Counted from the first letter of the stretch, positions 7,234-35,741 are shown. The stretch is DNA of 37,777 bases from Protofrankia coriariae (GCF_001017755.1 NZ_JWIO01000029.1:11289-49065); one strand, 5' to 3'. Notes: generated by a model not told the origin, from the letters alone. Numbers and translations: made by a program.

Positions 7234-7266
7234 CGCCGTTGGGGTCGCCGCCAGGGGTTGTGCGGG

Positions 7267-11521: not shown

Positions 11522-12940
11522 ATGTCGGGAGACACCCCCGTACTGATGTTGCGGGCCTACCGGGAGTGGTACGGCCTCGAGCAGCACGAAGTTGCCTCAC
11601 GACTGGTGACCCTTGCCCACGCCATCGACGGCACGCACCCCGGGGTCAACGACGAGATGATCTCCCGGTGGGAACGCGGACTGGTCCGACCACGACGACG
11701 CTACCGGCAGCTGCTGTGCACGCTGTACCAGGCGACAGAAACGCAGCTGGGATTCTGCCGGCCCCTCCCCGGGGAGACCGTCATCCACCCGTGGCCGCCG
11801 GTACCCGCCGGCGACAGCGCATCCGCAGACACCACCATGGCGCTGCCCTGGAACGCGGAGGGCGGTTTGCAGGCGGCCCGGGGCATCCTCGACGCTGAAG
11901 GCATGGATCGTCGACTGTTCCTCACCGCCATGGGCACGGCGATCACCGAACCCGCCCACGGGTGGCTGTTTGCCCCACCCGTGGACTCCGTGACCCGGAA
12001 CAGCGGCAGCCGTCTGCCCGCCACGGTCGTCGACCACCTTGACCAGATCATCGACCAGCTCCGCCGGATGGACGACCAGCTCGGTGGGGGCGCGCTACTC
12101 GGCCTGGTCCGCCAGCACCTCGCCTACGTCATCGGCCTCATCGAGCATCGGCGTTACACCGACAGCGTCGGACGCCGCCTCCACGCCACCGCGGCCGAAC
12201 TCCTCCGGCTGGCGGGCTGGCTTTCCTTCGACGCCGGTCAGCACGCCCCCGCGCAACGTTTCTTCGTCGCCGCGCTCCACGCCGCGCACACCGCCGGTGA
12301 CCGCGCGCTCGGCGCCAACATCCTCGGTTTCGCTTCCTGCCAGGCCAAGGACCTCGGTCATGTCCGTGCCGCGGTGTCACTCGCTGAAACCGCCCTGGCC
12401 GGCTATCCCGGTGGAACACCCCGGGTGAGCGCGATCCTGCACCTGCGGGCGGCCGAGGCGTACGCCAACGACCAGCAGACCACCGGCTGCCGCACGGCGA
12501 TCGACACCGCGTTCGACCGGCTGACAGACGCTGTTCCCGAGCACGGCGAACCCGGATGGTGCTATTGGATCAACGAGGCGCAGGTGCACGCCCAAGCCGG
12601 GTACTGCTATCTGAAACTCCACGACTGGCCCCGGGCGCAAGAACATCTCCACGCCGCCCTGTCCTTGCAGGACACGGCGTTCTCCCGCGAAGCAGCCCTC
12701 CGCCAGACACTGCTCGCCACCGCCTACGCCCGGCAGGATCCCCCCGACCTCGACCGGGTAACAGCACTCGGCAATGCCGCCGTCAACACCCTCACCGGGG
12801 AAGTCGACTCAGCCCGATGCATCGGCCATATGAGCCGCCTGGCCACCCACCTGGCGCCCCACCGCCGGACACCAGCAGTCCGCGAACTCCTCGACCGCGC
12901 TGATATGCTCACCGCTTCACCGTCCTCAAGATCTGTATAA
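11522..12940 (+). CDS. HTH-TPR transcriptional regulator
   Basis: A 472-aa protein with an N-terminal XRE-like HTH (about 1-75: L-R-A-Y-R-E-W-Y-G-L, then M-I-S-R-W-E-R-G) and a long alpha-helical C-terminus (about 170-470) rich in repeated A-A-x-x-L-x-x-A patterns typical of TPR/Spr1654-like ligand or peptide sensors. ATG 11522 was chosen because the HTH begins immediately; the frame is open back to 11417. Divergent orientation from the 48-aa ORF operon suggests local regulation, possibly by the mature peptide. The intact ISL3 element begins 43 bp after its stop without damaging it. Confidence 0.8.
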   Translation: MSGDTPVLMLRAYREWYGLEQHEVASRLVTLAHAIDGTHPGVNDEMISRWERGLVRPRRRYRQLLCTLYQATETQLGFCRPLPGETVIHPWPPVPAGDSASADTTMALPWNAEGGLQAARGILDAEGMDRRLFLTAMGTAITEPAHGWLFAPPVDSVTRNSGSRLPATVVDHLDQIIDQLRRMDDQLGGGALLGLVRQHLAYVIGLIEHRRYTDSVGRRLHATAAELLRLAGWLSFDAGQHAPAQRFFVAALHAAHTAGDRALGANILGFASCQAKDLGHVRAAVSLAETALAGYPGGTPRVSAILHLRAAEAYANDQQTTGCRTAIDTAFDRLTDAVPEHGEPGWCYWINEAQVHAQAGYCYLKLHDWPRAQEHLHAALSLQDTAFSREAALRQTLLATAYARQDPPDLDRVTALGNAAVNTLTGEVDSARCIGHMSRLATHLAPHRRTPAVRELLDRADMLTASPSSRSV

Positions 12941-12975: not shown

Positions 12976-14605
12976 AAGTTAACGGCTCTGCCAAGATTCC
13001 GGTGGTGACAGGCCGTCGTCGCGGTGACAAGCTGGCAACTGTGTGACGCCGAGCTGCTGAAGACTGTCTTTCCTCAGCTGGCCGCGGTGCTGGTCCAGCG
13101 CGTTGTCGATGAGGGGCAGAGGGTGCGGGTCGTTGCCCGGACCCGGGCGGATCCGGTGGCCTGTCCGCGCTGCGGGACGCTCACCGCGCGGGTGCACGGC
13201 TATCACCGGCGCTGGCTCGCCGATCTTCCGGTCGGGGGCAGGCCGGTGGTGATCGAGCTGACCCTGCGGCGGCTGGTGTGCCCGAGCCCGGACTGTTCCC
13301 AGCAGACGTTTCGGGAGCAGGTACCCGGACTGGCCGAGCGATACGCCCGGCGCACTCCTCACCTGGGGGCGCTCATCAGCGCGGTCGGCGTGGTCCTGGC
13401 CGGGCGGGCGGGGGCACGGCTGCTGTCGGTGTTCGCGGTGGCGGTCAGCTGCTCCACCGTGCTGCGGCTGGTGATGGCACTGCCTCTGCGCATGTCGGCG
13501 GTGCCCAGGGTGCTCAGCGTGGACGACGTCGCCCTGCGGCGACACCGCCGGTATGCGACCTTGCTGATCGATGCCGTCACCCACCGTCGCATCGATGTGC
13601 TCCCGAACCGGAAGGCGGACAGCCTGGCGGCGTGGCTGCGTGAGCATCCTGGGGTTCGGGTGGTGTGCCGTGATGGGTCGTTGTCCTATGCGGAGGCGAT
13701 CCGCCAAGGCGCCCCCGACGCCGTGCAGGTCAGCGACCGCTGGCACCTGTGGAAGAACCTCGGCGAGGCCGTGGAGAAGACCGTGGTCGCGCACAGCCGC
13801 TGCTGGCATGCCGGACCGCCCCGCACGATCACTGCCCGTGAGGAACACACGCGCAGCCGGCACGCCGCCGTCCACACCCTGCTCGACGAGGGCGTCGGGC
13901 TGCTGGAGTGCGCCCGCCGCCTGGGCTGGGCGCTGAACACCGTCAAACGCTATGCCCGGGCCGACTCGGCCGAGGCTCTGCTGCGTCCCCCGCAATACCG
14001 CCGCACGCTGGTCGATCCCTACCGCGACCATCTGCGCCGCCGCCTCGCCGACGAGTCCGGCGTGGCAGTCACCCGGCTCCTGGCCGAGATCCGCGAGCAG
14101 GGCTATCCGGGCAGCGCCACCCTGCTCGTGCGCTACCTCAACCAGGGACGCGCCGACCCCGAACGCATCCCGCCGTCCCCGCGCCGTCTGGCCGCCTGGC
14201 TCATGAGCAGGCCCGAGCACCTGCCCGATCATCGGCGGCGGCACCGGGACGACCTGGTCGCCAGCTGCCCGCAGATGACCGCCCTGGCCGCCCGGATACG
14301 CGCGTTCGCCGCCCTGCTCACCCACCACTGCGGCCAGGACCTCGACATGTGGATGAAAACCGTACGCGACGACGACCTGCCCTTCCTGCACGCCTTCGTC
14401 ACCGGGCTCGACACCGACCACGACGCCGTCGTCGCCGGACTGACCCTGCCTTACAGCAACGGCCCCATGGAGGGCGCAAACACCAAGGTCAAGCTGATCA
14501 AGCGGCAGATGTACGGCCGCGCCGAGTTCCCTCTGCTCCGCCAGCGCATCCTGCTCTCATGACCACGCTCCGTTACCACCGGAATCTTGGCAGGGCCAAG
14601 TTAAC
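12976..14605 (+). mobile_element. Intact ISL3-family insertion sequence with 8-bp target duplication
   Basis: The element proper is 12984-14597 (1614 bp). Terminal inverted repeats start GGCTCTGCCAAGATTCC on the left and GGCCCTGCCAAGATTCC on the right; they match over 23 bp with one mismatch. Both ends are flanked by the direct repeat AAGTTAAC (12976-12983 and 14598-14605), the 8-bp target duplication expected for ISL3. One transposase gene occupies nearly all of it. Intact ends and ORF indicate recent insertion. Confidence 0.93.
13024..14562 (+). CDS. ISL3-family transposase
   Basis: A 512-aa protein with a GTG start. The N-terminal zinc-binding region is C-P-R-C-G (about 40-44) with a later C-P-S-P-D-C-S. 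The DDE domain follows: V-L-S-V-D-D-V-A-L (first Asp), V-V-C-R-D-G-S (second Asp) and S-N-G-P-M-E-G-A-N-T-K-V-K (Glu), the ISL3 C-terminal signature. Length is at the upper end of the family, with an extra region around 280-400. It is complete and in frame, so the element may be active. Confidence 0.93.
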   Translation: MTSWQLCDAELLKTVFPQLAAVLVQRVVDEGQRVRVVARTRADPVACPRCGTLTARVHGYHRRWLADLPVGGRPVVIELTLRRLVCPSPDCSQQTFREQVPGLAERYARRTPHLGALISAVGVVLAGRAGARLLSVFAVAVSCSTVLRLVMALPLRMSAVPRVLSVDDVALRRHRRYATLLIDAVTHRRIDVLPNRKADSLAAWLREHPGVRVVCRDGSLSYAEAIRQGAPDAVQVSDRWHLWKNLGEAVEKTVVAHSRCWHAGPPRTITAREEHTRSRHAAVHTLLDEGVGLLECARRLGWALNTVKRYARADSAEALLRPPQYRRTLVDPYRDHLRRRLADESGVAVTRLLAEIREQGYPGSATLLVRYLNQGRADPERIPPSPRRLAAWLMSRPEHLPDHRRRHRDDLVASCPQMTALAARIRAFAALLTHHCGQDLDMWMKTVRDDDLPFLHAFVTGLDTDHDAVVAGLTLPYSNGPMEGANTKVKLIKRQMYGRAEFPLLRQRILLS

Positions 14606-14822: not shown

Positions 14823-16277
14823 TTAAGCCCCCCGTGAGAGCGCCCGTCGGAGCCGAGTGACGGGGCGGGCCTGTCGCGCGCGGCGTTCGGCTTGGATATG
14901 CCGGGCGGCAGTGTGTTCGCCCGTCAGAACGAGGCGGTCGTCGCCAGCTGCGACGGCGGCCTCGAAGGCGCAGTCCTTCTTCGTCGGAAAATGGAGGTGG
15001 TCGAGTGTGTGGGTGGATAGGGAGTAGCTGAGTGGGCCGGGGACACCGAAGCCGCTAGGGGTCACGGTCAGGCTGACGAACTGGGCCAGGATGCTCGCGC
15101 TGACGCCCGCGGCGAGGACGGCGACGTTCTGCCGCTTGGGTAGTGCCTCGGGGTCTGCACCGTTGATGTAGGCGGGATCGTCGAGGAGGCCCAGCTTGTC
15201 TGTCTGGATCTCGCCTGCGTCCAATTGTTTGTTGCAGCAGAGACAGGGTTGTCCTGGTAGCAGGACGTGGGTACGCCACGTCGCGTTCCTCATGGTGCCG
15301 TCGTCGAAGGTGTCGATACCGATGCCGCCGTCGATGACGGGTATCAGGTCGGCGTACGCGAGGGTGTTGAGCACACCGCGAGGCCAGGGCCGGTCGACGC
15401 AGCTGATCACGATGTCGTAGTCCAAGGCCGCAGCCAGTCCGGCCGGGTCACAGATGCTCGCATCGAGCTCGACGATCTTGGGGTTCGCGGCGGTGGCTGC
15501 TCGGACCATCAACCGTCCGGCGACCTCGACCTTGCTTCGGGCCAGCCGAACGTCTGTGGCGGTCGCGCCTACCAGCCGGTCGAGGTTGACGATCTCCACG
15601 CTGTCGAAGTCCATCACGCCGACCTGTATGAGGCCGGTGGCGGCGAGCCTCAGCCCAACATCCAGCCCTACGCTGCCGGCCCCGACCACGAGTACCCGGG
15701 TGCGGGCGAGGCTGGCGTGGATCTCCTCGCCCCAGGCTGAGACGGTGCGGTCCTGCCTGTCGTTGCTCTTCGGTGCCGGCCGGAGCTGGTCGTTCCAGGT
15801 GACCCGGAAATGGTCACCCACGACCCGGACCGACTCACCGTGCGTCGGGACTCCCACGGCATCCCACACACGGCACGACCAATCCCCGTTCCCGGCAAGA
15901 GTCATTCCGACCAGCGGCTTGCCGGTCACCTGCTGAACGAGGTGGGCGTAGGACCGCTCGGCGTCATGGTCCGGACGGGACATCAGCTGCCATCCCCGGC
16001 TCCCGGGGTGGGAGTGCAGCGCTACGACACCTCGACCGAGCGAAGCAGCCTGGGCTGCCGCCCGGACGAAGTAGTCGCCGGTGAACGACGCGTTGCCATG
16101 GACAGCCCGCTCGCCGCGCTCCGGTAGCAGCGCGGCGTTTACCAAGGCGGTAGTTCTGGTCGAGCCGGTGGAGGTCGCGTACGTCGCCAGGCACACGTCT
16201 TCCTGGCCGTCGGCTCGGAGCAGATGCCGGCTGAGCTCGTTGTCGATCGTGCCGGGCATCGCTGCGGAGAAGGTCAT
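14823..16277 (-). CDS. JAB deubiquitinase-ThiF/E1 fusion
   Basis: A 484-aa two-domain protein. N-terminal JAB/MPN metallopeptidase: H88-S-H90-P, then S100-R-P-D103 (the JAMM H-x-H-P-x-S-x2-D motif). C-terminal ThiF/E1 adenylation domain: G-A-G-S-V-G at 199-204, N-L-D-R at 231-234, C293 in S-C-V-D-R-P-W as a candidate active-site cysteine, and C345/C347/C348 as part of a metal site. E1 adenylates and thioesterifies a ubiquitin-like C-terminus; JAB trims or removes it. The start overlaps the E2-like stop (ATGA). It is the last gene of the operon; the IS5 remnant follows at once, so a further gene may have been lost. Confidence 0.9.
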   Translation of the reverse strand: MTFSAAMPGTIDNELSRHLLRADGQEDVCLATYATSTGSTRTTALVNAALLPERGERAVHGNASFTGDYFVRAAAQAASLGRGVVALHSHPGSRGWQLMSRPDHDAERSYAHLVQQVTGKPLVGMTLAGNGDWSCRVWDAVGVPTHGESVRVVGDHFRVTWNDQLRPAPKSNDRQDRTVSAWGEEIHASLARTRVLVVGAGSVGLDVGLRLAATGLIQVGVMDFDSVEIVNLDRLVGATATDVRLARSKVEVAGRLMVRAATAANPKIVELDASICDPAGLAAALDYDIVISCVDRPWPRGVLNTLAYADLIPVIDGGIGIDTFDDGTMRNATWRTHVLLPGQPCLCCNKQLDAGEIQTDKLGLLDDPAYINGADPEALPKRQNVAVLAAGVSASILAQFVSLTVTPSGFGVPGPLSYSLSTHTLDHLHFPTKKDCAFEAAVAAGDDRLVLTGEHTAARHIQAERRARQARPVTRLRRALSRGA

Positions 16278-16636
16278 GCCGCTTCCTGAAGAACGCTCCG
16301 GACGTGCGCCAGCCATGCCTGCGCCGGCTCCTCGGCGTCACCCCAACCGGCGACCTGGCGGGAGTGCCGCACCCACCCGGGCAACGTCTCATCCATGTTG
16401 ATGTTGGTGTTCGTCAGCGCCACCGTCGCGGGGAGGTGGATCCAGTGAGGCGGCACGGCAGGCCATGCTCCGAGTTCGGACATAGCTACTCCGGTCTCCA
16501 CGTCGGTTGCCCCTGACTGGGTCGCCGCCGCGACTGTGAAGACGACGACCGAGGCTGTCACCGTCGTCTGGATGTCGCACCGGAGTAGACCGGCTATGAA
16601 GGCGTCGGCGCCCACGGTCGCGACGGCGGAGGTCAT
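16274..16636 (-). CDS. E2/UBC-like protein (prokaryotic E2 family E type)
   Basis: A 120-aa protein. The C-terminal half has the order P-x-V-P-P-H-W-I-H-L-P, then G-W-V-R-H-S-R-Q, then G-W-G-D and a final W-L-A-H-V-R-S-V-L helix. This matches the pattern of prokaryotic E2-like family E proteins found beside ubiquitin-like and ThiF genes. The only cysteine is C20, N-terminal to that core, so whether a classical thioester cysteine exists is unclear. The start overlaps the ubiquitin-like stop by 1 bp (TGATG) and the end overlaps the JAB-E1 start. Role inferred: accepting the activated ubiquitin-like protein from E1. Confidence 0.75.
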   Translation of the reverse strand: MTSAVATVGADAFIAGLLRCDIQTTVTASVVVFTVAAATQSGATDVETGVAMSELGAWPAVPPHWIHLPATVALTNTNINMDETLPGWVRHSRQVAGWGDAEEPAQAWLAHVRSVLQEAA

Positions 16637-19247: not shown

Positions 19248-19478
19248 GTGGATGACCGCCTTGCTCTGCGGCTGGTACCGGATGAGCTCTGGGAGCTCGT
19301 GGAGCCCTTGCTGCCTGTTTTCCCTGCGGCGTGGTCAGGGTAGCGGGACACGGCGCCGGTGTCGGATCGGGCGGTGTTCACCGCGGTGGTCTACGTGTTG
19401 ACGTCGGGCTGTGCGTGGCGGTTGTTGCCGCCGTCGTTCGGGGTGATGGTCCCGACGGCGCATCGCCGGTTCAGAGCC
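19248..19478 (+). pseudogene. IS5-family transposase N-terminal remnant
   Basis: From GTG 19248 the frame encodes L-V-P-D-E-L-W-E-L-V-E-P-L-L-P, then an in-frame TAG, then T-A-P-V-S-D-R-A-V-F-T-A-V-V-Y-V-L-T-S-G-C-A-W-R, the typical N-terminal domain of IS5-type transposases. It breaks off near H-R-R-F, where IS30 sequence begins. Dead by stop codon and truncation. Confidence 0.85.
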
Positions 19479-20191
19479 AATTCTCCGACGACCCGGCCAT
19501 GCAGGCCGCGACCGAGACCATCTACCAGGCCCTCTACCGGCCCGAACGCGGCGGCCTGGAGCGCGACACCGCCACGAACCTCCGCACCCGCCGACGGTCC
19601 CGCCGCCCGCGACGCCGTCCTGACCAGCGCGCCACCCGCTTCGCCGCCCCCGGCACCCTGATCACCCAGCGGCCCGCCGAAGTCCAGGACCGGATCCAGC
19701 CCGGTCACTGGGAAGGGGACCTCATCGTCGGCCAGGGCAACCGGTCCGCCATCGCCACTCTGGTCGAACGCTCCACCCGCTACCTGATGCTGCTGCACCT
19801 GCCCGGCGGGCGCGGAGCCGACCAGGTGCTCGACGCGCTCGTGCGCGAGGTCTCCGGCCTGCCCATCCCACTGGCGCGTTCACTCACCTGGGATCAGGGC
19901 AGCGAGATGAGCCGCCACGACGAGTTCACCGCGGCCACCGGTGTCCCGGTCTACTTCTGTGAGCCTGCCAAGCCCTGGCAACGCGGCTCGAACGAGAACA
20001 CGAACGGGCTGCTGCGCCAGTACTTCCCCAAGGGCACCGACCTGTCCGTCCACACCGCGTCCGATCTGGCGGCCGTCGCTGCCGAACTCAACGCGCGGCC
20101 CCGCAAGATCCTCGGCTGGACGACTCCGGCGAGTCAGCTCGATAAGCTCGTCGCAGCACTCGACCTCCCGGATGTTGCAATCATCGGCTGA
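19479..20191 (+). pseudogene. IS30-family transposase, 5'-truncated
   Basis: About 237 codons open with F-S-D-D-P-A-M-Q-A-A-T-E-T-I-Y-Q-A-L-Y and continue through the DDE domain: G-H-W-E-G-D-L-I-V-G (first Asp), T-W-D-Q-G-S-E-M (second Asp) and R-G-S-N-E-N-T-N-G-L-L-R-Q (Glu). The C-terminus is intact, but the N-terminal HTH region is missing and replaced by the IS5 remnant. The right end of the element probably lies near 20251, where the regulator remnant becomes recognisable. Confidence 0.85.
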
Positions 20192-20219: not shown

Positions 20220-20405
20220 TCACTCGAACCATGCGACCTCGTGTCGCACCTGCTGGGTCCAACCGTGCGCGACCCGGTGCGCGGTGCGGGGACGCAGTTT
20301 GTAGCGGCGGGCGAACTCGATCGCGATCTCGTCGTGGGACATGCCGACCGCGCGCATCCGCGCACGCAGCTCGTCCTGCTCGACCCGCTGGCTGCGCTTG
20401 CTCAT
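20220..20405 (-). pseudogene. Truncated HTH-TPR regulator, paralogue of the gene at 27476
   Basis: From ATG 20405 the first 52 codons match the start of the regulator at 27476 (44 of 52 residues identical by eye, including A-R-M-R-A-V-G-M-x-H-D-E-I-A and T-A-H-R-V-A-H-G-W-T-Q-Q). After Q-Q the sequence diverges and stops nine codons later, at the IS30 end. The helical sensor part is gone. It is a remnant of a second regulator of the same family, broken by the IS30 insertion or an associated deletion. Confidence 0.8.
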
Positions 20406-20629
20406 GACGCCGCCGCACATCCTCTCCGGACGCGAATGCTGATCGCTGAGCCTTCTATCCCGTAGCATGAACCATTCCACCGTAGTCAAACAGTCACGGG
20501 TAGAGCAGCCGGGTGTCCAAGGCGGTGGAGACTCTTCGTGCTCATACCTCTGCTGCCTGGTACGCCGGGCGAACACGTGCTGCGGACCGGCCGACGGGGT
20601 CGCCCCGGGTCCTCGTCGATGCCCCGGTG

Positions 20630-21412
20630 TCATCCGGGCATATTGCCGAAGACGGCTTCCTGCGCGGCCCGCGCGAGTGTGGCCTGGGTGGTCGCTGCGA
20701 GCCCGATCCGGTTCCAATGGAAGATCACATGTAGTGCGATGACCGCGCGTATTCCCCGCGTGAGATTGCCGTTTTCCCGCAGGCTCCGGAGTGATCTTCC
20801 TGCCTCGTGGAACGACGCGAGCCAGTCGCCGCCGATGAGGTCTGCGCGGGCGTGACCGAGGAGGAGGTGGCGCACGTCGCTGGTGAAGGATGCCCATATC
20901 CGCGGGTCGGGTGGTACTTCGGCGAGGCCGGAGCGCTGCTCGGCCACTCGTGCCCACACGTCGCCCTGCTCGTTGATGTCCAGTCCCGCGGCCCGCATGA
21001 GCGCGGTGCACAGCACGAGGGAGCGTTCCCGCCGGTCGGTGCGGCCGTCGCCGAGGGCGGAGAGCAGGTGGCGGCTGTCGGCGTGGAACAGCGTGTGGGC
21101 CAGGTCCATACCGGCCGGTCCGCCGAAGGCGTGGGTCTCCGGTTCGTAGATGTCGCGGGTCCAGGTGACGCCGTTCGTGAGCAGGGGATGGAGCGGGTCG
21201 GCGGCGTTGCTGCCGTGGCCGTCCGCCGGGTCAGCGAGCAGGTAGCGCACGCGCCACGGGCCCTTGCGGATGAACCACCAGGAGGTGATGAGACCGTTGG
21301 CCTCGGCCGACGGAAGGATTCCGGCCAGGTGGGCGATGGCTTGGCGTTCCCGCTTAGCGGGGTCCTGGGCAGGGTAGGTGATGTTCACCTGCTTCCACGG
21401 GGTTTCTTCCAT
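20630..21412 (-). CDS. Stand-alone thiopeptide-type bacteriocin biosynthesis (SpaB_C-like) protein
   Basis: A 260-aa protein. The start W-K-Q-V-N-I-T-Y, then S-W-W-F-I-R-K-G-P-W-R-V-R-Y-L-L and later F-H-A-D-S-R-H-L-L-S, parallel the C-terminal elimination domain of LanB enzymes (compare W-W-F-I-R-Y in the LanB of this cluster). Such stand-alone domains occur in FxLD and thiopeptide clusters. It lies 15 bp after lanC, so it is the last gene of the operon. It could assist glutamate elimination or catalyse a further step; the cluster's LanB already has its own domain. Confidence 0.82.
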   Translation of the reverse strand: MEETPWKQVNITYPAQDPAKRERQAIAHLAGILPSAEANGLITSWWFIRKGPWRVRYLLADPADGHGSNAADPLHPLLTNGVTWTRDIYEPETHAFGGPAGMDLAHTLFHADSRHLLSALGDGRTDRRERSLVLCTALMRAAGLDINEQGDVWARVAEQRSGLAEVPPDPRIWASFTSDVRHLLLGHARADLIGGDWLASFHEAGRSLRSLRENGNLTRGIRAVIALHVIFHWNRIGLAATTQATLARAAQEAVFGNMPG

Positions 21413-21427
21413 GGTGGGGCCTTTCCG

Positions 21428-22525
21428 TCAGCGGAGCAGGAGGCCGGCGTCCCACGAGGTCGTCCTGGTTCCGGCGGCGGCCAGGGCGGCACCGGCCGAT
21501 CCCACCAGGAAACCCGAGGGCTCGTCGGCTTGGGCGGGGGCGTTCTGGTGCAGGAGCAGCGGCTGGGTGAGAGGGATCGGGATGAGGGCGTCGGCGGCGA
21601 TGCTGCGGGCGGTTGCGAGCAGGCCGCCGGTCCCGTGACACAGGCTCCGGTCGATGAGACGGCCGAGCTGCTCCGGATCGTTCAGGCAGTCGAGGAAGGC
21701 GGTCTCGGCGTGCTGTTGACGGGCGGGGTCGTGCAGGGCGCGGGCTGCGAGTTGCAGGGCACGGGTGATGCCTGGAATTCCGTAACACCAGGAAGGTCTG
21801 AGCGGGCCCGGTTGGCTGGTGGTACCGCGGTCGATGTCGGCGAGCGTGACGATCTGTGGCCACCACGAGCCGCCACCGGCCTTCTGCTGCTCCCAGGCGT
21901 CCAGCCACCGGCAGATGCGTGTGATCGCATCCGTTTGTCCGTCGACCTCGATGCCATCACGGAAAGCGATGGCCAGGAGGGCGAGCGGGCCGACGATTCC
22001 GTGGGCGATCGAGTGGTTGCTGTGACCTCCGATGGGCCCTTTCTGACTGCGATTGGGGCCGGTTGGGCACCACCAGCCGGGAAGGCCGTCGACGGGCTCG
22101 GTGAGCCGTACCAGGTAGCCGAGGACGTCGCGGAGCAGATCATGATCGCCGCTGCGGCGCAGCGCCACGGCCAGGCCGGTCAGGCCGCCGATGAGGTCGT
22201 ATTCGGCCATCAGCGGCCGGCGGCGCTGGTCGATCCTGGCATGCGCGGCTTCGAGACGATGCCGGGTGACCATGGCGGTGCCCGCGTCCGCGGTGGCCAT
22301 GGCCGTGGCGAGGCCGGGCCGGTCGGCGACACCGTGCAGGACGAAGGACAAAGCCGGAGCGCCGTAGTAAAGGCTGGCTGTGGCCGCGATGCTGACGCCG
22401 TCGGCGACGGCCTGTATCAGGGTCGCGTTCGCTTGGTCCCAGGTGGCCGCGCCGCCTCGGGCCTGCTCGATGTGAAGGAGGGCGATGCCGGCCGCGCCGC
22501 CGCTGAGGGACTGCCCCGGCTTCAT
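21428..22525 (-). CDS. lanC: Lanthionine synthetase C-like cyclase (LanC)
   Basis: A 365-aa LanC-type protein. The conserved zinc-site motifs are present: S-W-C-Y-G (first Cys) and S-L-C-H-G-T-G-G (second Cys and His). The preceding H-S-I-A-H-G-I-V-G-P segment matches the family's catalytic His region. LanC adds Cys thiols to dehydroalanine/dehydrobutyrine to form lanthionine rings. The start overlaps the lanB stop (ATGA). Length is near the usual 400 aa. It should cyclise the 48-aa FxLD-type precursor encoded at 25554. Confidence 0.92.
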   Translation of the reverse strand: MKPGQSLSGGAAGIALLHIEQARGGAATWDQANATLIQAVADGVSIAATASLYYGAPALSFVLHGVADRPGLATAMATADAGTAMVTRHRLEAAHARIDQRRRPLMAEYDLIGGLTGLAVALRRSGDHDLLRDVLGYLVRLTEPVDGLPGWWCPTGPNRSQKGPIGGHSNHSIAHGIVGPLALLAIAFRDGIEVDGQTDAITRICRWLDAWEQQKAGGGSWWPQIVTLADIDRGTTSQPGPLRPSWCYGIPGITRALQLAARALHDPARQQHAETAFLDCLNDPEQLGRLIDRSLCHGTGGLLATARSIAADALIPIPLTQPLLLHQNAPAQADEPSGFLVGSAGAALAAAGTRTTSWDAGLLLR

Positions 22526-25335
22526 GACACGCCCCGGGCAAGCAGGGTGTGAGCGGTAGCGCGGGCCAGCCGCAGGCAGTGACGCTCGGAGACCAGGTCA
22601 ACTCCGATCATCCGGGCGTGGTGCAGGTGCAGCAGGTCGGCCAGGACCCGGTCGGGGTCGAGGCCGTCCTGGTCGACACGGGCCCGGTAGTCCACCAGGG
22701 CCCGGCGGAGCCGGTCGTTCTCGTACAGGGGGACTGTCCGCATCACCTGCTCACGGCCACCGCTCACCGGTCGGCCGGCGGTTGTTGTCGCCGGGTCGCC
22801 CCGGTGCTCGACGTGATCGATGAGCCAGGCATGTCCGTTTCCGGTGAAGCCGTCGGCGATGCCGATCAGTCCGGCGGCGGTTGCGACTGTCCGGTCGCCG
22901 GACAGGCGCTGGACGGCCGCGTGGGAGTCGGCGGCGAACACCGCTTCGGCCGCCGCCAGGGTCGGACCTGTGCCGAACCGGGTCTCAGGCCGGTAGGTGT
23001 GGATCGTGTAGTCGCGCAGCAGCGCGTGAGCGCGCAGACGGTCCGCCCACCGTCCGAACTGCCGGACGGCTGCCCCGAAACGGTCCGCGCCGCGCAGCGG
23101 GACGCGTAGCCGGAGATGGGGTTCAGGTTGGTGATAGCGGATGAACCACCAGCGGTCCTGACTGTTCTGGTTGTCGCCGACCAGTTCGGCGAGCCGGGCA
23201 AGGATCTCATCGTCGCGGCCGTAGACCTTCACATACAGCCATGGCGATAGGCCCGGCCGGTGCTCCACGGTGCTGGCGGCCCGCACCGGGCGCGGGTGTC
23301 TCGGCTCGATCGGGTTCGCGGCTCGGGCGAGCGTGACGACGAGCTCGTGGGGTCTGCCTCCGAACCACCCGGGCCGGTCGCCGGCCTCGGTGAGGACCGC
23401 GTACGGCTGCCGGTCAAGCTGGCCGCGAAGGAGCGCGAGGTGGGCGGGCTCGTCGAGGTCGATGCGGATCCGGACATCGTCGGCGCCGAGCAGGACCTCG
23501 GACGGGATCCGGTAGGTCTTCCGCAGCCGCTCCCAGGCATCCCGCCAGTCAGGAAAGAGCGCGGCGCGGGCCGGGAGGCTCCTGGCCGTGATGATCCATC
23601 GGGCGGGATGAAGGATCGACCGGCCGTACCGGATGCGCGGGAGGAACGGGAGTTCGCGGGCGACGGGTCCCCAGGTGAACGGGCAGCAGGGCGCTGAGAA
23701 GGCCGTCCAGATCTCTGTGAGGAACCGCGCGAGCGGTTGCTGGCCGCCAGGGAGGTCGACCGCGTTGAACAGCATCGGCTCGACCGGGCAGCCGCGGGAC
23801 AGTGACACCAGCCAGAGCCGCCGCGCGTCGCCCGTGACCGCCAGGTCGTCGAGATCGAGGCCGGGGTTTTCCTGGTATTCCCCGAGGGGCAGGACCGGCA
23901 GGATCTCGGGAACCCTGGCCAGGGCCGTCATCTTCCGAGCCAGCGGTGGCCCGGAGATCTGCGTCATGATCGCTTCGGGCATGGCGGTTGGCAGCGCGGC
24001 GTACGCGCGGCGGAAGCGCTCCCGCTCGGTGTCGTCGAGCAGGTGCAGGAACCGGCCGACGGTCACCCCGGCGTGCCGGGCCCCGCTGATGACGGTCAGC
24101 GTGAACGCTCCCCGTTCCAGATGACCCAGGGTCTGCGCCGCCAGGCTGAAACGTAGCTCGGTGTGCGGGACCGGCGGCCGATGCCCGACGGTCAGCCTGG
24201 CGATCAGATCGTCGTCCAGGACCACGTCGGCACGGCCGTCGAGGGCGGCCTGCTGGGCGATCTTCGCCAGCATCACGTCGCGAGCGGTGAGCAGCTGCGG
24301 CTCGCGCCGATGGGACCCTCGGTATCCAGCCGGCAGGCCCAGCCCGGACGCCGCTGCCAGTTCTCGGACGGGCACCGCCGCGCCCGGCCCGTACCGTTCG
24401 AGGAACGCCTGGTGATAGGCCCGCCACCCCGGCATCTCCGGCGCGACCAAGGTAAGGATCGATGCGGCGTGCTCGGCCTCGCGCAGCACCGCCGCAGGTA
24501 AGGCCACCGAGCAGCCGACTCCCACATCGGCCACGGTCTGTCCGGACGAGTCCGGAAGGTCGGCGTAGCGGGCGAGGTGCGTCGCCGGGTCGGTCACCGT
24601 CATCGGGGGGCGCACAGCCGAGAGCAGCACGCGGTGGGCCACCAGGTCAGCCAGCATTTCCTCGATGACCGCCAGGTCGACGGTGGGTGCCTCGACGGCC
24701 AGCTTGGCGGTCAGGTCGCTGAACCTGATCGGCCGTCGCGCCGCTTCCACGGCCAGCCGCAGCGGGCGGGTCAGGTCCACCTCGGCATCCCGCAGGTGGC
24801 CCTCGGCGCTCACACCCGGAACGATCCACGAACGGCCGCGGGCGAACCCGAGGCCGTTCGTCACGACCGGGACCGTCCGCAGGGTGGCCAGCCGCTGCTC
24901 GATCCGCTCCGCCTGCTCGTCCAGGAACAGCCCGTCCGGCCGGATCACGACCCGGTGGTCACCGCCCCACGCGGCATGCGCGCGGGTGCTGAACTCCACC
25001 GGGGCGATGCCCGCGAACAGCCCGAACGGCGTCGCTCTGCTCGTCCAGCGCAGCAGATACCGCGTCAGCGTCTCTACCAGCCGCCGCACCGGCCGCGTCG
25101 CGCTTCGGGCAGCGGGCGCAGGCGAGGCGAGCTGCCGCTCCACCTGGGCGGCCAGCTCCGGTGACGCGGTCCGCACCGCGTCGGCGAACCCGCGCAACGC
25201 CCATACCCGTCGGAGCCACACCTGCCAGCCAGGGACGTCGTCGCCGGTCAGGTCCGGCCACGGCGGTAGTTCCAGATCCGCGGGGATCGTCGTGGTCCTG
25301 ATCAGTGCCGCGTCCACGGCCTCATACGCGCGCAC
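22522..25335 (-). CDS. lanB: Full-length lantibiotic dehydratase (LanB)
   Basis: About 937 aa. The N-terminal glutamylation domain (first two thirds) includes R-W-T-S-R-A-T-P-F-G-L-F-A-G and Y-G-R-S-I-L-H-P-A-R-W; the C-terminal SpaB_C elimination domain includes W-L-Y-V-K-V-Y-G and W-W-F-I-R-Y-H-Q-P-E-P-H-L-R-L-R. It dehydrates Ser/Thr using glutamyl-tRNA. I chose GTG 25335 because GGAGG lies 5 nt upstream; the frame is open to ATG 25398, but that start would place the intergenic hairpin inside the coding region. It overlaps lanC by 4 bp. Confidence 0.93.
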   Translation of the reverse strand: MRAYEAVDAALIRTTTIPADLELPPWPDLTGDDVPGWQVWLRRVWALRGFADAVRTASPELAAQVERQLASPAPAARSATRPVRRLVETLTRYLLRWTSRATPFGLFAGIAPVEFSTRAHAAWGGDHRVVIRPDGLFLDEQAERIEQRLATLRTVPVVTNGLGFARGRSWIVPGVSAEGHLRDAEVDLTRPLRLAVEAARRPIRFSDLTAKLAVEAPTVDLAVIEEMLADLVAHRVLLSAVRPPMTVTDPATHLARYADLPDSSGQTVADVGVGCSVALPAAVLREAEHAASILTLVAPEMPGWRAYHQAFLERYGPGAAVPVRELAAASGLGLPAGYRGSHRREPQLLTARDVMLAKIAQQAALDGRADVVLDDDLIARLTVGHRPPVPHTELRFSLAAQTLGHLERGAFTLTVISGARHAGVTVGRFLHLLDDTERERFRRAYAALPTAMPEAIMTQISGPPLARKMTALARVPEILPVLPLGEYQENPGLDLDDLAVTGDARRLWLVSLSRGCPVEPMLFNAVDLPGGQQPLARFLTEIWTAFSAPCCPFTWGPVARELPFLPRIRYGRSILHPARWIITARSLPARAALFPDWRDAWERLRKTYRIPSEVLLGADDVRIRIDLDEPAHLALLRGQLDRQPYAVLTEAGDRPGWFGGRPHELVVTLARAANPIEPRHPRPVRAASTVEHRPGLSPWLYVKVYGRDDEILARLAELVGDNQNSQDRWWFIRYHQPEPHLRLRVPLRGADRFGAAVRQFGRWADRLRAHALLRDYTIHTYRPETRFGTGPTLAAAEAVFAADSHAAVQRLSGDRTVATAAGLIGIADGFTGNGHAWLIDHVEHRGDPATTTAGRPVSGGREQVMRTVPLYENDRLRRALVDYRARVDQDGLDPDRVLADLLHLHHARMIGVDLVSERHCLRLARATAHTLLARGVS

Positions 25336-25362
25336 CCGCACCTCCACCCATGAGCTGTGGGT

Positions 25363-25400
25363 GTGTGGCCCGGCCCCCTGCGCAGGGGGCCGGGCCACAC
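25363..25400 (-). promoter_or_regulatory. 18-bp perfect hairpin between precursor gene and lanB
   Basis: GTGTGGCCCGGCCCCCTG at 25363-25380 pairs perfectly with 25383-25400, leaving a nominal 2-nt loop. It begins 7 bp after the precursor stop. There is no U-tract, so it probably acts as a partial terminator or 3' stabiliser that makes precursor mRNA exceed lanBC mRNA. Confidence 0.8.
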
Positions 25401-25407
25401 ATCAGCG

Positions 25408-25554
25408 TCAGCCGTTGGTGGTGCAGGCGTCGCTGCCGGTTTCTCCGGATCCGCACTTGTCGGAGGTGCAGTCATCCGAACCGGTCGCGGGCGCGGGCCC
25501 GGCGTCGACGAGCTGGATATTGAGACGGAACTCCGAGGTGTCCATGGTGTCCAT
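25408..25554 (-). CDS. FxLD-type class I lanthipeptide precursor peptide
   Basis: A 48-aa peptide. Residues 1-28 form the leader with F9-R-L-N-I-Q-L-V-D, an FxLD-type box in which Asn replaces the usual Asp. The predicted core begins at C29 (CTSDKC, then GSGETGSDAC, then TTNG) with cysteines at 29, 34 and 44 and Ser/Thr at 30, 31, 36, 39, 41, 45, 46. Up to three lanthionine-type rings are possible; those from Cys29 and Cys34 would have to join to neighbouring Ser/Thr. AGGA lies 9 nt upstream of ATG 25554, favouring it over the second Met. The flanking genes are the methyltransferase, lanB and lanC. Confidence 0.92.
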   Translation of the reverse strand: MDTMDTSEFRLNIQLVDAGPAPATGSDDCTSDKCGSGETGSDACTTNG

Positions 25555-25582
25555 CAGAGGGCATCCTTTCTGAGATGGATCT

Positions 25583-25626
25583 CGGAAACCATTTCCCCTT
25601 CCGCGGAGAAGAGGGGTTCGTTTCCG
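25583..25626 (-). promoter_or_regulatory. Hairpin between methyltransferase and precursor genes
   Basis: The outer arms CGGAAAC/GTTTCCG (25583-25589 and 25620-25626) enclose an inner CCCC/GGGG pairing. It occupies the 81-bp gap between the methyltransferase stop and the precursor start and could be a terminator, a processing site or part of an internal promoter region. Confidence 0.5.
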
Positions 25627-25635
25627 GAAGGGTTG

Positions 25636-26856
25636 CTATTTCGAGAGCGGCCAGGTGAATACGACGCGGCTGTGTCTCTTGTTCAGCACCAGCCCTTCCG
25701 GAAGGTCGGCGTCGGGCGTGTCGATCGGAAAAACGCACAGTGTCGGAGCCGGACGGTCGACCTCATCCCATGCGCGGATCTGGTCGGCCATCCGCTCGGC
25801 GGCCCCGGCCGCGCCGGGTCCATGGGCGTAGGCGACGTACTCGAACTCGGTCCCGGCCTCGTCGACCTGGCGCAGCTTCCCCCGGTAAGCCAGGGTCGTA
25901 CCGTCGACGAACGCCGGGGTGCCCCAGCGCCACGACGGAACGACGAGACCGCTGTCGATCGCCTCCTGCGGAACGATCATCGAGCCGAAGTCAGGTAGGT
26001 GGGTGGCCAGCCACAGGTCAAGGTTGGCGGAAAGACGCCCGCCAGGGACGGTCACTCCCGACCGCGCCTCATGACGTTCCTGGGAAAACACGCCGGTGAC
26101 AGCGCCGCCGTCGATGTCCTGCTGGGGTTCGGTGAGCCACAGGGTCACGCCGTCGCCGAGGGCGACGTTCCAGCTATCGCTGGCGCCGGCGCCCTGCATC
26201 GGAACGAATCCACACATCAGGTTGCTGCGGCTGACAAGGTGATTCCCGGAACGCTGGAGCGCCCAGGACCGGGTCATACCCAAGGTGCGAAGCGGGACGA
26301 CGAGGGTGCCGCCGTCGGCGAGTTGGCTGATCCAAGCCGGAGGAATGTCCCACGCGCCCACGGTGATTATGATCATGTCGTAGGTGCGGCCGGGCTCGAT
26401 CCCGAACTCGGCGTCGGCGCATACCACCTTGACGTCGGTGTAGCCCGCCGCGTCCAGGCAGGCGCGGGCCCTGTCAGTGACGTCCGGGTCGATGTCGACG
26501 GTCGTCACCGACCCGTCCGGCCCGGCGATCTCCCGCAGCAGCGCGGCGTTATACCCACCACTGCCCACCTCAAGAACGTGTCGGCCGCTGGCCTGACCCA
26601 GCATCTCCGCGATCAAATACGGCGCGGACACCGAACTGATGCCCACACCGTCCTCGCGGCGCTTGGTGACGATCGCGGTGTCCTCGTATGCCTCCTCCAG
26701 AGAGACCCCCGGAGTGAACAACTCCCGCGGAACCGTCCTTAGCGCCCGCTCCACGTCGGCGCGCATCGTGAGACCCTGCCGCACATGCCCTTTGATGATC
26801 TTGTCGACGAGGGCGTCGCGGAGCTCCTCGGCCCGGGTGGTGATGTCGACGCTCAT
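25636..26856 (-). CDS. PIMT-like methyltransferase, FxLD system
   Basis: A 406-aa protein. The N-terminal 220 residues are a protein-L-isoaspartate O-methyltransferase-like domain (V-L-E-V-G-S-G-G-Y-N-A-A motif I; V-D-I-D-P-D after it; D-M-I-I-I-T-V-G-A-W), and the C-terminus is an extension usual in the FxLD-system methyltransferases. In related lanthipeptide clusters such enzymes methylate Asp, giving succinimide and isoaspartate; the core has Asp32 and Asp42 as candidates. ATG 26856 follows a GAGAGGA site by 8 nt. It is the first gene of the operon. Confidence 0.9.
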   Translation of the reverse strand: MSVDITTRAEELRDALVDKIIKGHVRQGLTMRADVERALRTVPRELFTPGVSLEEAYEDTAIVTKRREDGVGISSVSAPYLIAEMLGQASGRHVLEVGSGGYNAALLREIAGPDGSVTTVDIDPDVTDRARACLDAAGYTDVKVVCADAEFGIEPGRTYDMIIITVGAWDIPPAWISQLADGGTLVVPLRTLGMTRSWALQRSGNHLVSRSNLMCGFVPMQGAGASDSWNVALGDGVTLWLTEPQQDIDGGAVTGVFSQERHEARSGVTVPGGRLSANLDLWLATHLPDFGSMIVPQEAIDSGLVVPSWRWGTPAFVDGTTLAYRGKLRQVDEAGTEFEYVAYAHGPGAAGAAERMADQIRAWDEVDRPAPTLCVFPIDTPDADLPEGLVLNKRHSRVVFTWPLSK

Positions 26857-27475
26857 AGCGACGTCCTCTCTCGATGCGTGTGGACCGCCACGGTTCGGGC
26901 GACCTCCTGACTTTGACGATCTTTCTAGCGTGAGTGGATCGGTATGGAGACCTCCGTGTCGCCCTTGCTCCCGCGCAGGCGAAGCCGGCCGACACAAGAA
27001 CATGATCATCATGTTTCCCTCGGGCGCCACGCCGCGCGCAACGAACAAGATCGAATTGATGCCGTGCGTGACGCACCACCACGATGGCCGATGCCAGGAG
27101 GTGGGTCATTCCCCCCACCACGAACGTTTCCTTCGGCCCTCACAAGGCCGTTGACCTGCGAGAACGCCGCCGCCTGCTCCGCTTTGTCCGGAGCGATGAC
27201 GCCGATTCGTTCGGCGGGGCCCGCAAGGACGCGATCTCGCTCGTCGCCTGGAGGGCGCCGCGGACAAGCAGCGACCCGCGCTCGGTTCACCCCACGAACG
27301 CCGCGGCCGGCGGTATTCCACATCCTGTCCACCATCACCGGCGATGCGGCCGCTTCGATCTACCCGACCCCTCTGTTCTGGCCGTGAGCGGACAGCTACG
27401 GTTGCGACAGTTCGGTCGGTGACCGAGAGCCCCGAGGCCGATCGCCATCCAGACTCAGGGAGGAAGCACCGCGGC
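26857..27475. promoter_or_regulatory. Divergent intergenic region of the lanthipeptide cluster
   Basis: About 620 bp between the methyltransferase (-) and the regulator (+), with no convincing gene. It contains a perfect palindrome GTGCGTGACGCAC at 27064-27076 and a GGTGGG/CCCACC inverted repeat at 27100-27119, both possible regulator sites. Promoters for both directions are expected here. Confidence 0.45.
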
Positions 27476-29164
27476 ATGGACAGGAGCAGCCAGCGCGTCG
27501 AGCAGGAGGAGTTGCGCGCCCGGATGCGCGCGGTGGGCATGGCGCACGACGAGATCGCCGTCGAGTTCGCCCGCCGCTACCGGCTACGGCCTCGTGCCGC
27601 CCACCGCGTGGCGCACGGCTGGACCCAGCAGCAGGCAGCCGGCCACATCAACGCCGCGGTCGCCCGCCTCGGCTCTGACCCGGATGGCACCGCCTCGATG
27701 AGCGCTCCCTGGCTGTCCGAGCTGGAGAACTGGCCGTTCCCGGCCCGCCGACGCCTCACCCCACAGGTCCTCGCCGTGCTCGCCACGATCTACGGCACCG
27801 ACATCCACACCCTGCTCGATCTCGACGACCGGGAACACCTCGCACCCACCGACATGCTCCTGATCAACGGCATGCGCCAATCCGTACCATCGTCACCCAT
27901 ACCAGCCGGCAGAGGAATCATCCCAGCCAGACTGGGTCTCATAGGAAACGACGACGTGGGCTCACCAGAATCGTCCGCTTCTATAGGGATGGACTCCCGA
28001 CAGAATGATCGTCACGGAGGATTCCGGCCTGTCACCGAGGGTGTCGCGGCACGGCGGATCGCCGTCGGACACAGCAGGCCGTCCCTGGACACGCCACTGG
28101 CAGGATGGCTTGTGGAGAGGATGGTCGTCATGGCAGCTCGTGAGTCCGCCGATTTCGGCCGGGCATCTGGTCGCAGCAACGTGGGCCCGCTGACAGTCGA
28201 ACAGTTCCACGCGGATCTGACCTGGCTGGCCACACGCTACCCCTATCGTCCCGTCGCGCCGTCGTTCGCCGAGATCGTCGATCTGCGCAACCACGCGTTC
28301 AGCCTGCTGGAAGAGCGACAGCGTCCGGACGAGACCCGAGAGCTGTATGTGATCGCGGGCATGTTGTGCGGCATGCTGGCCAACGCCTCCTTCGACCTCG
28401 GCTACCTCCATGCCGCGGCGACCCAGGCACGGACAGCCTTCCTGTGCGGGGAGCTGGCCGGGCACAACGGCCTGCGCTGCTGGGTCCGTGGCATGCAAAG
28501 CCTGATCGCCTACTGGCAGGGCAGTCTGCCCGAGGCCGTCTCGCTGGCCCGCCACGGCTGGGAATTCGTTCCGGAACACGGCACCGCACGCGTCCGGGCG
28601 GCAGCCCTGGAGGCACGCGCCGCGGGCCGGTTGGGCGACGAGGCAACGGTGCGGGACGCGCTGCGGCGTGCCGGCCAGGCCCGCGACGAGATCACCGACG
28701 ATGACGCGCCCGGCGGGATGCTGGCCTTTCCCGAGCCCAAACAGTTCTTCTACACCGCATCCTCCTACCTGGGACTACACGGCCAGGCCCTGCCCGCGGC
28801 CAACTGGGCGACTCGCGCCGAACAGGTCGCCAGAGCCGCGATCGGTCTGTACGAGGCCGCGCCCACCAGCGAACAGCGGCTCGGGGAACTGTCGCTGGCC
28901 CGGCTCGACCTGGCCGCCGCCCACCTGGAGCGCTCCGAACTCGACGGCGCGGCGCAGACGATCCGGACCGTCCTGGACGCCACGGCGCACCGGCCCACCG
29001 ACAGCGTCCTGCGCCGACTTCGCCAGCTCGCCACCGTCGCGGACCGGCCCCGGTATCGGGATCTGCTCCCCGCCCAGCACCTGCGTGAGGAGATCCTGGA
29101 TACCTGCACGACCGCTACGCAGACCACGAACCGCTTCCACGACACCCGCGCCGACGCCGAATGA
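27476..29164 (+). CDS. HTH-TPR transcriptional regulator
   Basis: A 562-aa protein. The N-terminus (about 1-130) carries an HTH region (M-A-H-D-E-I-A-V-E-F-A-R-R-Y, then W-L-S-E-L-E-N-W-P); a variable linker follows (about 140-220) and then a helical TPR-type sensor (about 240-550, with D-L-G-Y-L-H-A-A-A-T-Q-A-R). ATG 27476 has GGGAGGA about 11 nt upstream. Divergent from the lanthipeptide operon and overlapping the oxidoreductase gene (ATGA). A likely local regulator; a close paralogue is broken at 20220-20405. Confidence 0.82.
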   Translation: MDRSSQRVEQEELRARMRAVGMAHDEIAVEFARRYRLRPRAAHRVAHGWTQQQAAGHINAAVARLGSDPDGTASMSAPWLSELENWPFPARRRLTPQVLAVLATIYGTDIHTLLDLDDREHLAPTDMLLINGMRQSVPSSPIPAGRGIIPARLGLIGNDDVGSPESSASIGMDSRQNDRHGGFRPVTEGVAARRIAVGHSRPSLDTPLAGWLVERMVVMAARESADFGRASGRSNVGPLTVEQFHADLTWLATRYPYRPVAPSFAEIVDLRNHAFSLLEERQRPDETRELYVIAGMLCGMLANASFDLGYLHAAATQARTAFLCGELAGHNGLRCWVRGMQSLIAYWQGSLPEAVSLARHGWEFVPEHGTARVRAAALEARAAGRLGDEATVRDALRRAGQARDEITDDDAPGGMLAFPEPKQFFYTASSYLGLHGQALPAANWATRAEQVARAAIGLYEAAPTSEQRLGELSLARLDLAAAHLERSELDGAAQTIRTVLDATAHRPTDSVLRRLRQLATVADRPRYRDLLPAQHLREEILDTCTTATQTTNRFHDTRADAE

Positions 29165-32995: not shown

Positions 32996-34279
32996 TCAGG
33001 CCGGCGCAGGGGCTTTTGGGCTGCGTCTGAGCTGGGTGCACAACGCCTGGGCGACGCAGACGAGGGTGACGTGGCGGTGCCAGCCGAGGAAGGAGCGTCC
33101 TTCGTGGTGGTCGAGGCCGAGGCCGTCCTTGAGCTCGCGGTAGTCGTGTTCGATCCGCCAGCGGATCTTCGCGAGGCGTACGAGTTGGCGCAGGGGGATG
33201 TCGGCGGGCAGGGTCGACAGCCAGTAGTCGGTGGGTTCGGCCTTGCCGGGGGGCCATTCGGCCAGCAGCCAGCATTCCGGCAGGCTGCGGTCGTCGGCGC
33301 GGGTGAGGGCTTTGGCGGTGGGGCGGATCCGCAGGGCCATGAACCGGGAGCGCATCGCCGCGTCGGGGTTGGCTGGGCTTCGGTGGGTGCCGTGTCGCCA
33401 GGTCACGGTGCGCAGCGCGCTGCGGCCGGCGGCCAGCGCGAGGGCTTTCAACGTGGACGGCGGGTCGGGGTAGGCCGGGACGGGGCGGCGTCCGTTCCCG
33501 GAGTAGGGCGCGGTGACCGGTACGGCGTCGGCGGGGTGGGCGGTGGCGGTGGGGGTCACCCCGAGCACGTAGACCAGGCGCCGGTCGGTGAGAGCCTGAC
33601 GGAACTCGGCGGCGTCGCCGTAGCCGGCGTCCGCGACGACCGGCCGGGGCGGCACGCCCCAGCCGGCGAGCTCGTCGAACATGTCCAACGCCAGGCGCCA
33701 CTTCTCCCGGTGCCGGACCTCGGTGGGGATCCCGGCCCGTGTCCGGCGGTCGCGGACTGCCGCGGCCTCGGCCGGATCGCAGGCGGTGTCGTCCCAGGAC
33801 GCAGGCAGGAACAGCCGCCAGTCCAGCGCCGCCGACGCCCAGTCGGTCACCGCGTGCACGGACACCCCGATCTGGCAGTTGCCGACCTTCCCCAGCGTGC
33901 CGGAGTACATCCGGGCCACCCCCGGCGAGGCCGGACCGTCCTTCGGGAACCCGGTGTCATCGACGACCAGCGCCTCCGGGGCCACGAACTCCACCGCCCA
34001 GCCCGCCAGCCGCCGGCGGACCTCGCCGTGCTCCCACGTCGAGTTCCGCAGGAACTGCTGCAGGCCCTGATGGTCCACCCCGAGCCGGGCGGCCATCGGC
34101 ACCAGGCTCTTGCGCTTCCCGTCCAGCATCAGCCCACGCAGGTAGAGCTCGCCCTTGGCCCGTTGGTCCTTGCGTGGCAGGTCCGCCAGCATCCGCGCCG
34201 CGAACTCCTCCACGACCGGACGCACCTGTTCCATCTCCTCCGGCGTCACAACAGGCAGCGAACCAGGCGAAGATCCCAA
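32996..34279 (-). CDS. IS701-family transposase
   Basis: A 427-aa complete transposase. Motifs: A-L-V-V-D-D-T-G-F-P-K-D-G (first Asp), R-P-V-V-A-D-A-G-Y-G-D (second Asp) and I-R-W-R-I-E-H-D-Y-R-E-L-K (Glu). Length and motif order fit IS701. The left end of the element is probably near 32870, just beyond the MITE; the right end is close to or truncated by the IS5 element starting at 34308. Terminal repeats could not be identified. Confidence 0.9.
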   Translation of the reverse strand: MGSSPGSLPVVTPEEMEQVRPVVEEFAARMLADLPRKDQRAKGELYLRGLMLDGKRKSLVPMAARLGVDHQGLQQFLRNSTWEHGEVRRRLAGWAVEFVAPEALVVDDTGFPKDGPASPGVARMYSGTLGKVGNCQIGVSVHAVTDWASAALDWRLFLPASWDDTACDPAEAAAVRDRRTRAGIPTEVRHREKWRLALDMFDELAGWGVPPRPVVADAGYGDAAEFRQALTDRRLVYVLGVTPTATAHPADAVPVTAPYSGNGRRPVPAYPDPPSTLKALALAAGRSALRTVTWRHGTHRSPANPDAAMRSRFMALRIRPTAKALTRADDRSLPECWLLAEWPPGKAEPTDYWLSTLPADIPLRQLVRLAKIRWRIEHDYRELKDGLGLDHHEGRSFLGWHRHVTLVCVAQALCTQLRRSPKAPAPA

Positions 34280-35619: not shown

Positions 35620-35741
35620 GCCTTCCAGCAGAACGCACCCACCACCAGGCGCAACCCGACCAGCCCCGAAACCGCCACCAGGCACGCAAACCAGACATCA
35701 ACTCAGACCCAGACCCGGCAAGAGCTCACAGAACACCCACT

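Follow-up and report, generated by a model that had tools for sequence, protein, structure and literature searches.

The DNA considered here is a 37,777-nucleotide stretch of the Protofrankia coriariae genome (NZ_JWIO01000029.1:11289-49065), called the window below, meaning the whole stretch that was analysed. It corresponds to contig C42 of a 5.8 Mb host genome assembled in 116 contigs at about 88% completeness. From 26856 to 20630 on its minus strand, five intact genes of a class I lanthipeptide cluster lie head to tail in the order methyltransferase, precursor, LanB, LanC and stand-alone glutamyl lyase. An earlier, sequence-only reading of the window had given the cluster this span, and the methyltransferase start at 26856 and the final stop at 20630 bear it out. 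The features of the locus are as follows.

25636..26856, minus strand: lanS(A), a PIMT-like O-methyltransferase with a C-terminal extension, 406 amino acids (TIGR04364, PF01135)
25408..25554, minus strand: lanA, the 48-amino-acid precursor (TIGR04363, homologues, Shine-Dalgarno sequence, ratio of nonsynonymous to synonymous substitution rates, dN/dS)
25459..25461, minus strand: codon of Asp32, the predicted methylation and isoaspartate (isoAsp) site (conserved-Asp column of 84 precursors; family motif TxDGC, PMC10787088)
25362..25401, minus strand: perfect inverted repeat with 20-bp arms in the lanA-lanB gap, a predicted transcript hairpin (attenuator, processing or stability element)
22522..25335, minus strand: lanB, a full-length dehydratase with Glu-tRNA-dependent glutamylation and canonical anti-glutamyl-lyase domains (PF04738 and PF14028; probable start)
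21428..22525, minus strand: lanC, a zinc-dependent lanthionine cyclase, 365 amino acids (PF05147; NisC alignment)
20630..21412, minus strand: stand-alone glutamyl lyase, 260 amino acids, a predicted syn-lyase converting glutamyl-Thr to (E)-dehydrobutyrine, (E)-Dhb (TIGR03891, 198.6 bits; PF14028)

Judged by its sequence, the locus is an ordinary but intact, conserved member of the PIMT-type class I lanthipeptides (lanthimiditides), a known kind like the olv and coi systems. The intact FxLD-type class I cluster proposed earlier is thus supported by five open frames, matches to the family profiles and the retention of catalytic residues. What is unusual about the locus is its Asp-Lys site, the keeping of a predicted syn-lyase in a clade that lacks the ring known for such an enzyme, and a strong intergenic hairpin.

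The precursor, MDTMDTSEFRLNIQLVDAGPAPATGSDDCTSDKCGSGETGSDACTTNG, is encoded by an open reading frame running from 25554 to 25408 on the minus strand, with Cys29, Cys34 and Cys44 where the sequence-only reading had put them. It matches positions 2-37 of the 37 in TIGR04363 with 29.0 bits (E 7.9e-7). Since this is just under the curated cut-off of 30 bits, automatic annotation would tend to overlook lanA, as the description "easily missed" had implied. For the same reason the precursor counts as FxLD-like on grounds of homology and context, without certification by the model. A Shine-Dalgarno sequence, AGAAAGGA, precedes the gene, and both this sequence and its distance to the start are conserved in relatives; on such features lanA is not a chance open reading frame. 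The precursor sits in a group, here the CGSG clade, whose cores have the form TxDxCGSGxTxSxAC. Its leader motif is FRLN (residues 9-12), and the asparagine is found in several other clade members as FxLN or YxLN.

The core residues of interest are Ser26, Cys29, Thr30, Asp32, Lys33, Cys34, Thr39, Cys44 and Thr46. By analogy with relatives, the likeliest rings would be a lanthionine (Lan) between Ser26 and Cys29, a methyllanthionine (MeLan) between Thr30 and Cys34 that encloses Asp32, and a second MeLan between Thr39 and Cys44. The earlier suggestion of up to three rings on the three cysteines appears reasonable on the sequence evidence. The calculated MH+ of the 48-residue peptide is 4842.006 without modification, 4787.975 once three waters have been lost and 4769.964 if an aspartimide forms as well; isoAsp has the same mass as Asp. 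Most clade members have just two cysteines, the equivalents of Cys34 and Cys44, which points to those as the core rings and to a product in which only the Thr30-Cys34 and Thr39-Cys44 thioethers form, with Cys29 free or in a disulphide. We regard this simpler product as unlikely, given that every clade precursor with a counterpart of Cys29 has a Ser or Thr three residues earlier, as fits a Ser26-Cys29 ring, and that mOlvA contains an extra N-terminal Lan besides the rings it has in common with mCoiA1 (PMC9486935).

The methyltransferase matches all 394 positions of TIGR04364 with 455.2 bits, exceeding the curated cut-off of 320 bits; it also matches PF01135 and can be aligned to the solved PIMTs 2yxe and 1dl5. 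Its S-adenosylmethionine motif is shortened to GSGGYNA, and this was considered as a disabling change and rejected, as the same form is common to many family members in intact clusters. Within T30-S31-D32-K33-C34 of the precursor, Asp32 occupies the conserved-Asp column of 84 non-redundant precursors that adjoin TIGR04364-type methyltransferases, and Lys33 takes the place of the family glycine. The family core motif is TxDGC (PMC10787088), and the locus has the arrangement characteristic of lanthimiditides, namely the conserved Asp of a TxDGC-type motif adjoining a C-terminally extended PIMT homologue. Conservation of the Asp position (Asn in one precursor) is partly by construction, since the search pattern demanded Asp or Asn there. 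The following (n+1) residue was left free and is Gly in 47 precursors, Asn in 28, Glu in five, and Thr, Asp, Ser and Lys in one each, the single Lys being that of the window. The homologue OlvSA converts the motif Asp to isoAsp within a MeLan ring and accepts the cyclised peptide only (PMC13001092). By homology, LanS(A) should take Asp32 to an aspartimide and isoAsp.

LanB has the PF04738 (570 bits) and PF14028 domains expected of a full-length class I enzyme capable of glutamylation and elimination, and it aligns with MibB (E 3.5e-66) and NisB. Its lyase domain retains the equivalents of the Tyr, Arg784, Arg786, Glu823, Arg826 and His961. The protein probably starts at GTG 25335 instead of the longest-frame start at 25398, because the palindrome in the lanA-lanB gap covers 25398 and relatives start just before the motif Y.A.DAALIR. 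LanC retains the equivalents of Asp141, His212, Arg280, Cys284, Tyr285, Cys330 and His331 of NisC, including the Cys-Cys-His zinc ligands in the aligned WCYG and LCHG motifs. A disabling mutation in lanB or lanC, previously named as a finding that would speak against a product, was looked for in both genes and none was found.

The last gene of the cluster had been called SpaB_C-like, which holds as far as it goes; its sharper identity is a second, divergent glutamyl lyase additional to the one fused in LanB. Syn-lyases (SptBb and the elimination domain CoiSA(ED)) can be told apart from anti-lyases by a Lys in place of the Tyr, the loss of Arg826 and the loss of the catalytic His (PMC9486935, PMC9011353), and syn-elimination by SptBb has been demonstrated by nuclear magnetic resonance (PMC9890492). 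We aligned 74 stand-alone or methyltransferase-fused lyases with 80 LanB C-terminal stretches, NisB and MibB. All 74 have Lys at the column that is Tyr in NisB, MibB and the LanB of the window; the Arg826 column is Ala in 73, and the His961 column holds a small residue (Ala, Ser, Thr or Gly) throughout. The stand-alone lyase of the window has Lys50, Arg54, Arg56, Glu92, Ala95 and an alanine opposite the LanB-lyase histidine, which amounts to Lys for Tyr and Ala for both Arg826 and His961 with Arg784 and Arg786 kept. The protein is therefore predicted from its residues to be a syn-glutamyl lyase, and given this published signature at least one MeLan should derive from (E)-Dhb.

A search of the PDB with the lyase sequence gave no meaningful match. 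The AlphaFold model of the protein (pLDDT 93.7) resembles the elimination domains of MadB, NisB and MibB, with Z scores of 16.9-17.7 over 212-241 residues. One further feature sets the lyases of the CGSG clade apart from those of TC-type clusters: wherever both parts of a CGSG-type cluster were readable, three residues separate the catalytic Lys from the first substrate Arg, versus four in TC-type clusters with a readable motif. In the lyase tree, the CGSG-type rows form one well-supported set (100/96 with 18 rows, 100/99 with 19 rows), and the shorter loop is thus probably a single event inherited by many members as opposed to many independent ones.

Between lanA and lanB, the palindrome at 25362-25401 is predicted to fold with -62.4 kcal/mol (z -3.94), and none of 200 shuffles was equally stable. 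Averaged over 83 family loci, the highest-scoring stem within the 80 nucleotides that follow lanA reaches 10.5, compared with 5.4 for dinucleotide shuffles, and strong stems (score of at least 10) occur downstream of lanA in 61% of loci versus 5% upstream. The stems recur across loci while their sequences differ. As a classical intrinsic terminator the hairpin is unsupported, as no U-tract follows it, and a scan for sigma-70 promoters and terminators gave no promoter-like site and two terminator-like matches at chance level. Scanned against Rfam at gathering thresholds, the window gave no hit, which leaves the hairpin outside the catalogued RNA families. Stem-loops of this kind are known to occur downstream of lantibiotic structural genes; a literature search on lanA hairpins found nothing relevant. 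By analogy, we infer that the hairpin sets the ratio of precursor to enzymes.

The same gene order, methyltransferase-lanA-lanB-lanC-lyase, is found again in more than 50 actinobacterial loci. A different Frankiaceae genome carries a precursor homologue (73% identity, E 2.3e-18) in the equivalent place, and another is present in Frankia nepalensis. Measured against the latter, lanA has a dN/dS of about 0.37 and the remaining four genes lie at 0.23-0.37; none of the frames is broken by a stop or frameshift, and all five genes are under purifying selection. A search for the precursor in four other genomes of the genus found no match, nor did a megablast search of a plasmid collection with the whole cluster. 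Given the missing matches in congeners and the transposases on both sides, the distribution of the cluster is patchy, and it probably arrived by transfer. The same absence from the four genomes, together with an IS30 remnant at 19331-20191 and three further transposases in the window, could instead point to a relic, in decay or fallen silent, whose genes happen to be intact within a region rich in insertion sequences (IS) and which no longer gives a product. With five intact frames, the dN/dS values above and all catalytic residues kept, we consider a relic improbable, and transfer accounts for the patchiness equally well.

An active cluster of the lanthimiditide type is the reading that we favor, and we put at roughly 85% the probability that the locus makes a PIMT-associated class I lanthipeptide by the following pathway. 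LanB would bind the leader through FRLN, a variant of FxLD, and glutamylate core Ser and Thr residues, after which its own lyase domain would carry out anti-elimination of some glutamyl residues to give dehydroalanine or (Z)-Dhb. The stand-alone lyase would act by syn-elimination on at least one glutamyl-Thr to give (E)-Dhb. LanC would then add the cysteines, most likely to yield the Ser26-Cys29, Thr30-Cys34 and Thr39-Cys44 rings. In turn, LanS(A) would methylate Asp32, and the resulting aspartimide would be hydrolyzed mainly to isoAsp, so that ring B would contain a beta-amino acid. Enzymes encoded elsewhere would remove the leader and export the product, and the lanA-lanB hairpin would raise precursor output relative to the enzymes. 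The scheme joins the genes, family membership, catalytic residues, syn signature, selection and hairpin observed at the locus with a chemistry, ring pattern, isoAsp formation and hairpin role drawn from characterised homologues. The sequence-only reading had the cluster type and the rings right; it was incomplete in giving no role to the methyltransferase or the second lyase, and it was silent on the FRLN leader (as opposed to FxLD), on the missing cysteine used by the best-studied relatives and on the hairpin.

Several observations weigh against this pathway. Of the 84 precursors compared, only that of the window has Lys after the conserved Asp, and Lys is not one of the residues reported there (Gly, Thr, Asn and Asp; PMC13001092), so the aspartimide may close more slowly, or Asp32 may stay a methyl ester or go unmodified. 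Near the cluster there is neither a protease nor an obvious dedicated exporter; the coi cluster likewise contains no protease, and a search of the flanks of 20 clade loci for a conserved protease, exporter or regulator found no family in more than four of them. The fold of the stand-alone lyase is also that of the thiopeptide [4+2] cyclases PbtD, TbtD and TsrL (Z 15-16). The model matches both groups, hence the fold alone is not decisive and the residues decide the reaction. The protein could conceivably carry out another PF14028-type reaction, such as a thiopeptide-like cycloaddition, or merely assist LanB, and other reactions for stand-alone elimination-domain proteins were raised by Walker et al. 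2020 (PMC7268733). We judge this improbable, as all three diagnostic positions agree with the demonstrated syn-lyases CoiSA(ED) and SptBb and not with anti-lyases (PMC9486935), and a cycloaddition would call for a pair of dehydroalanines and for thiopeptide partners absent from the cluster.

The remaining difficulty for a syn-lyase concerns its target. In CoiA1 the rings are Thr43-Cys47, Thr50-Cys55 and Cys51-Thr57 (PMC9486935), the last being the sole mapped syn-lyase ring of this cluster type. The CGSG clade lacks the equivalent of Cys51, making that ring impossible here, and several members with cores ending in ACSGG lack Thr57 too; the lyase is nevertheless kept. It follows that the syn-lyase of the clade must act elsewhere, most simply on Thr39 or Thr30. 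As a tentative proposal, to which we give clearly less than even odds, the clade may represent a distinct lanthimiditide subtype in which the Cys51-Thr57 ring was lost, a remodelled syn-lyase was redirected to Thr39 or Thr30, and the MeLan stereochemistry is one unseen in olv, coi or SapT, with the window adding aspartimide chemistry at Asp-Lys.

The surroundings of the cluster are those of an IS-rich island, with four transposase genes at 13024-14562 (ISL3), 19331-20191 (IS30 fragment), 32996-34279 (DDE_5) and 34783-35685 (IS4/5-like). A 161-nucleotide inverted repeat (83%) flanks the cluster at 20250-20410 and 27471-27631. The outer copy (27471-27631) falls within the N-terminal part of an NsdA-like regulator gene at 27344-29164 on the plus strand, which lies directly upstream of the lanthipeptide operon and divergent from it; its counterpart at 20250-20410, which adjoins the IS30 transposase, resembles a leftover piece of that gene. 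The window holds two NsdA-family tetratricopeptide-repeat regulators, at 11417-12940 and 27344-29164 (318 and 102 bits), less than 18 kb apart. On the minus strand are a radical SAM protein (5397-6692), an AAA/kinase protein (3935-4549), a protein of no assigned family (4670-5608), an MFS exporter (7267-8916) and a 497-amino-acid ThiF-domain protein (14823-16316). The genes at 3935-8916 and 14823-16316 possibly form a second peptide or natural-product cluster.

In the host genome as a whole, five FxLD-type methyltransferases score over the family cut-off, two of them in tandem on contig C2. One locus on C2 is a full canonical cluster with the core STSDNCGKTCSSACTSCKQN, and two others (contigs C105 and C37) have no lanB or lanC within the stretch read. 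Across the loci compared, ten FxLD-type methyltransferases have no detected lanB or lanC within up to 9 kb on each side and may belong to pamtide- or graspetide-type or orphan systems.

PIMT-containing class I clusters make up the largest class I lanthipeptide families of actinobacteria that still await characterisation (PMC7268733); at the time of PMC9486935, a native product was on record for neither olv nor coi. For such clusters the locus in the window offers a compact test case. Because a syn-lyase persists in the clade although the one ring known to depend on such an enzyme in these clusters is gone, the Thr that the enzyme targets would show how the lyases divide the core between them. 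The unique Asp-Lys site provides a test of how much of a constraint the n+1 residue places on aspartimide formation, and the family-wide hairpin suggests a simple regulatory element common to these operons.

Among known systems, SapT (spt) offers the demonstrated syn-elimination by SptBb with the same active-site constellation; spt differs in having a split LanB with the syn-lyase as sole lyase and no PIMT described (PMC9011353, PMC9890492). The olv cluster of Streptomyces olivaceus NRRL B-3009 (OlvA/B/C/SA; PMC13001092) has the OlvSA-type Asp-to-isoAsp chemistry predicted here from the genes and an extra N-terminal Lan that Ser26-Cys29 would mirror, whereas it has no second lyase and differs in the context of the target Asp and in the C-terminal rings. 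In Streptomyces coelicolor, coi (CoiA1/B/C/SA; PMC9486935) resembles the window in its class I LanB and LanC, PIMT-type methyltransferase, second (syn) lyase with the Lys and without Arg826 and His961, TxDxC ring with the target Asp, and lack of a protease in the cluster. The spacing of the first two CoiA1 rings is kept by Thr30-Cys34 and Thr39-Cys44. In contrast to coi, where the lyase is fused to the methyltransferase, the lyase of the window is a separate gene with a Lys-Arg spacing one residue shorter, and the precursor has an extra Cys29, a much shorter leader, a Lys after the target Asp and no Cys51, hence no Cys51-Thr57 ring, which bears the D-allo-L-MeLan in CoiA1. The nearest relatives found, the locus of Frankia nepalensis CN7 and that of the other Frankiaceae genome, have the same five-gene order, precursors 73-75% identical and a hairpin after lanA; in F. 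nepalensis the Asp is followed by Glu where the window has Lys, and the hairpin arms measure 13 bp compared with 20 bp in the window.

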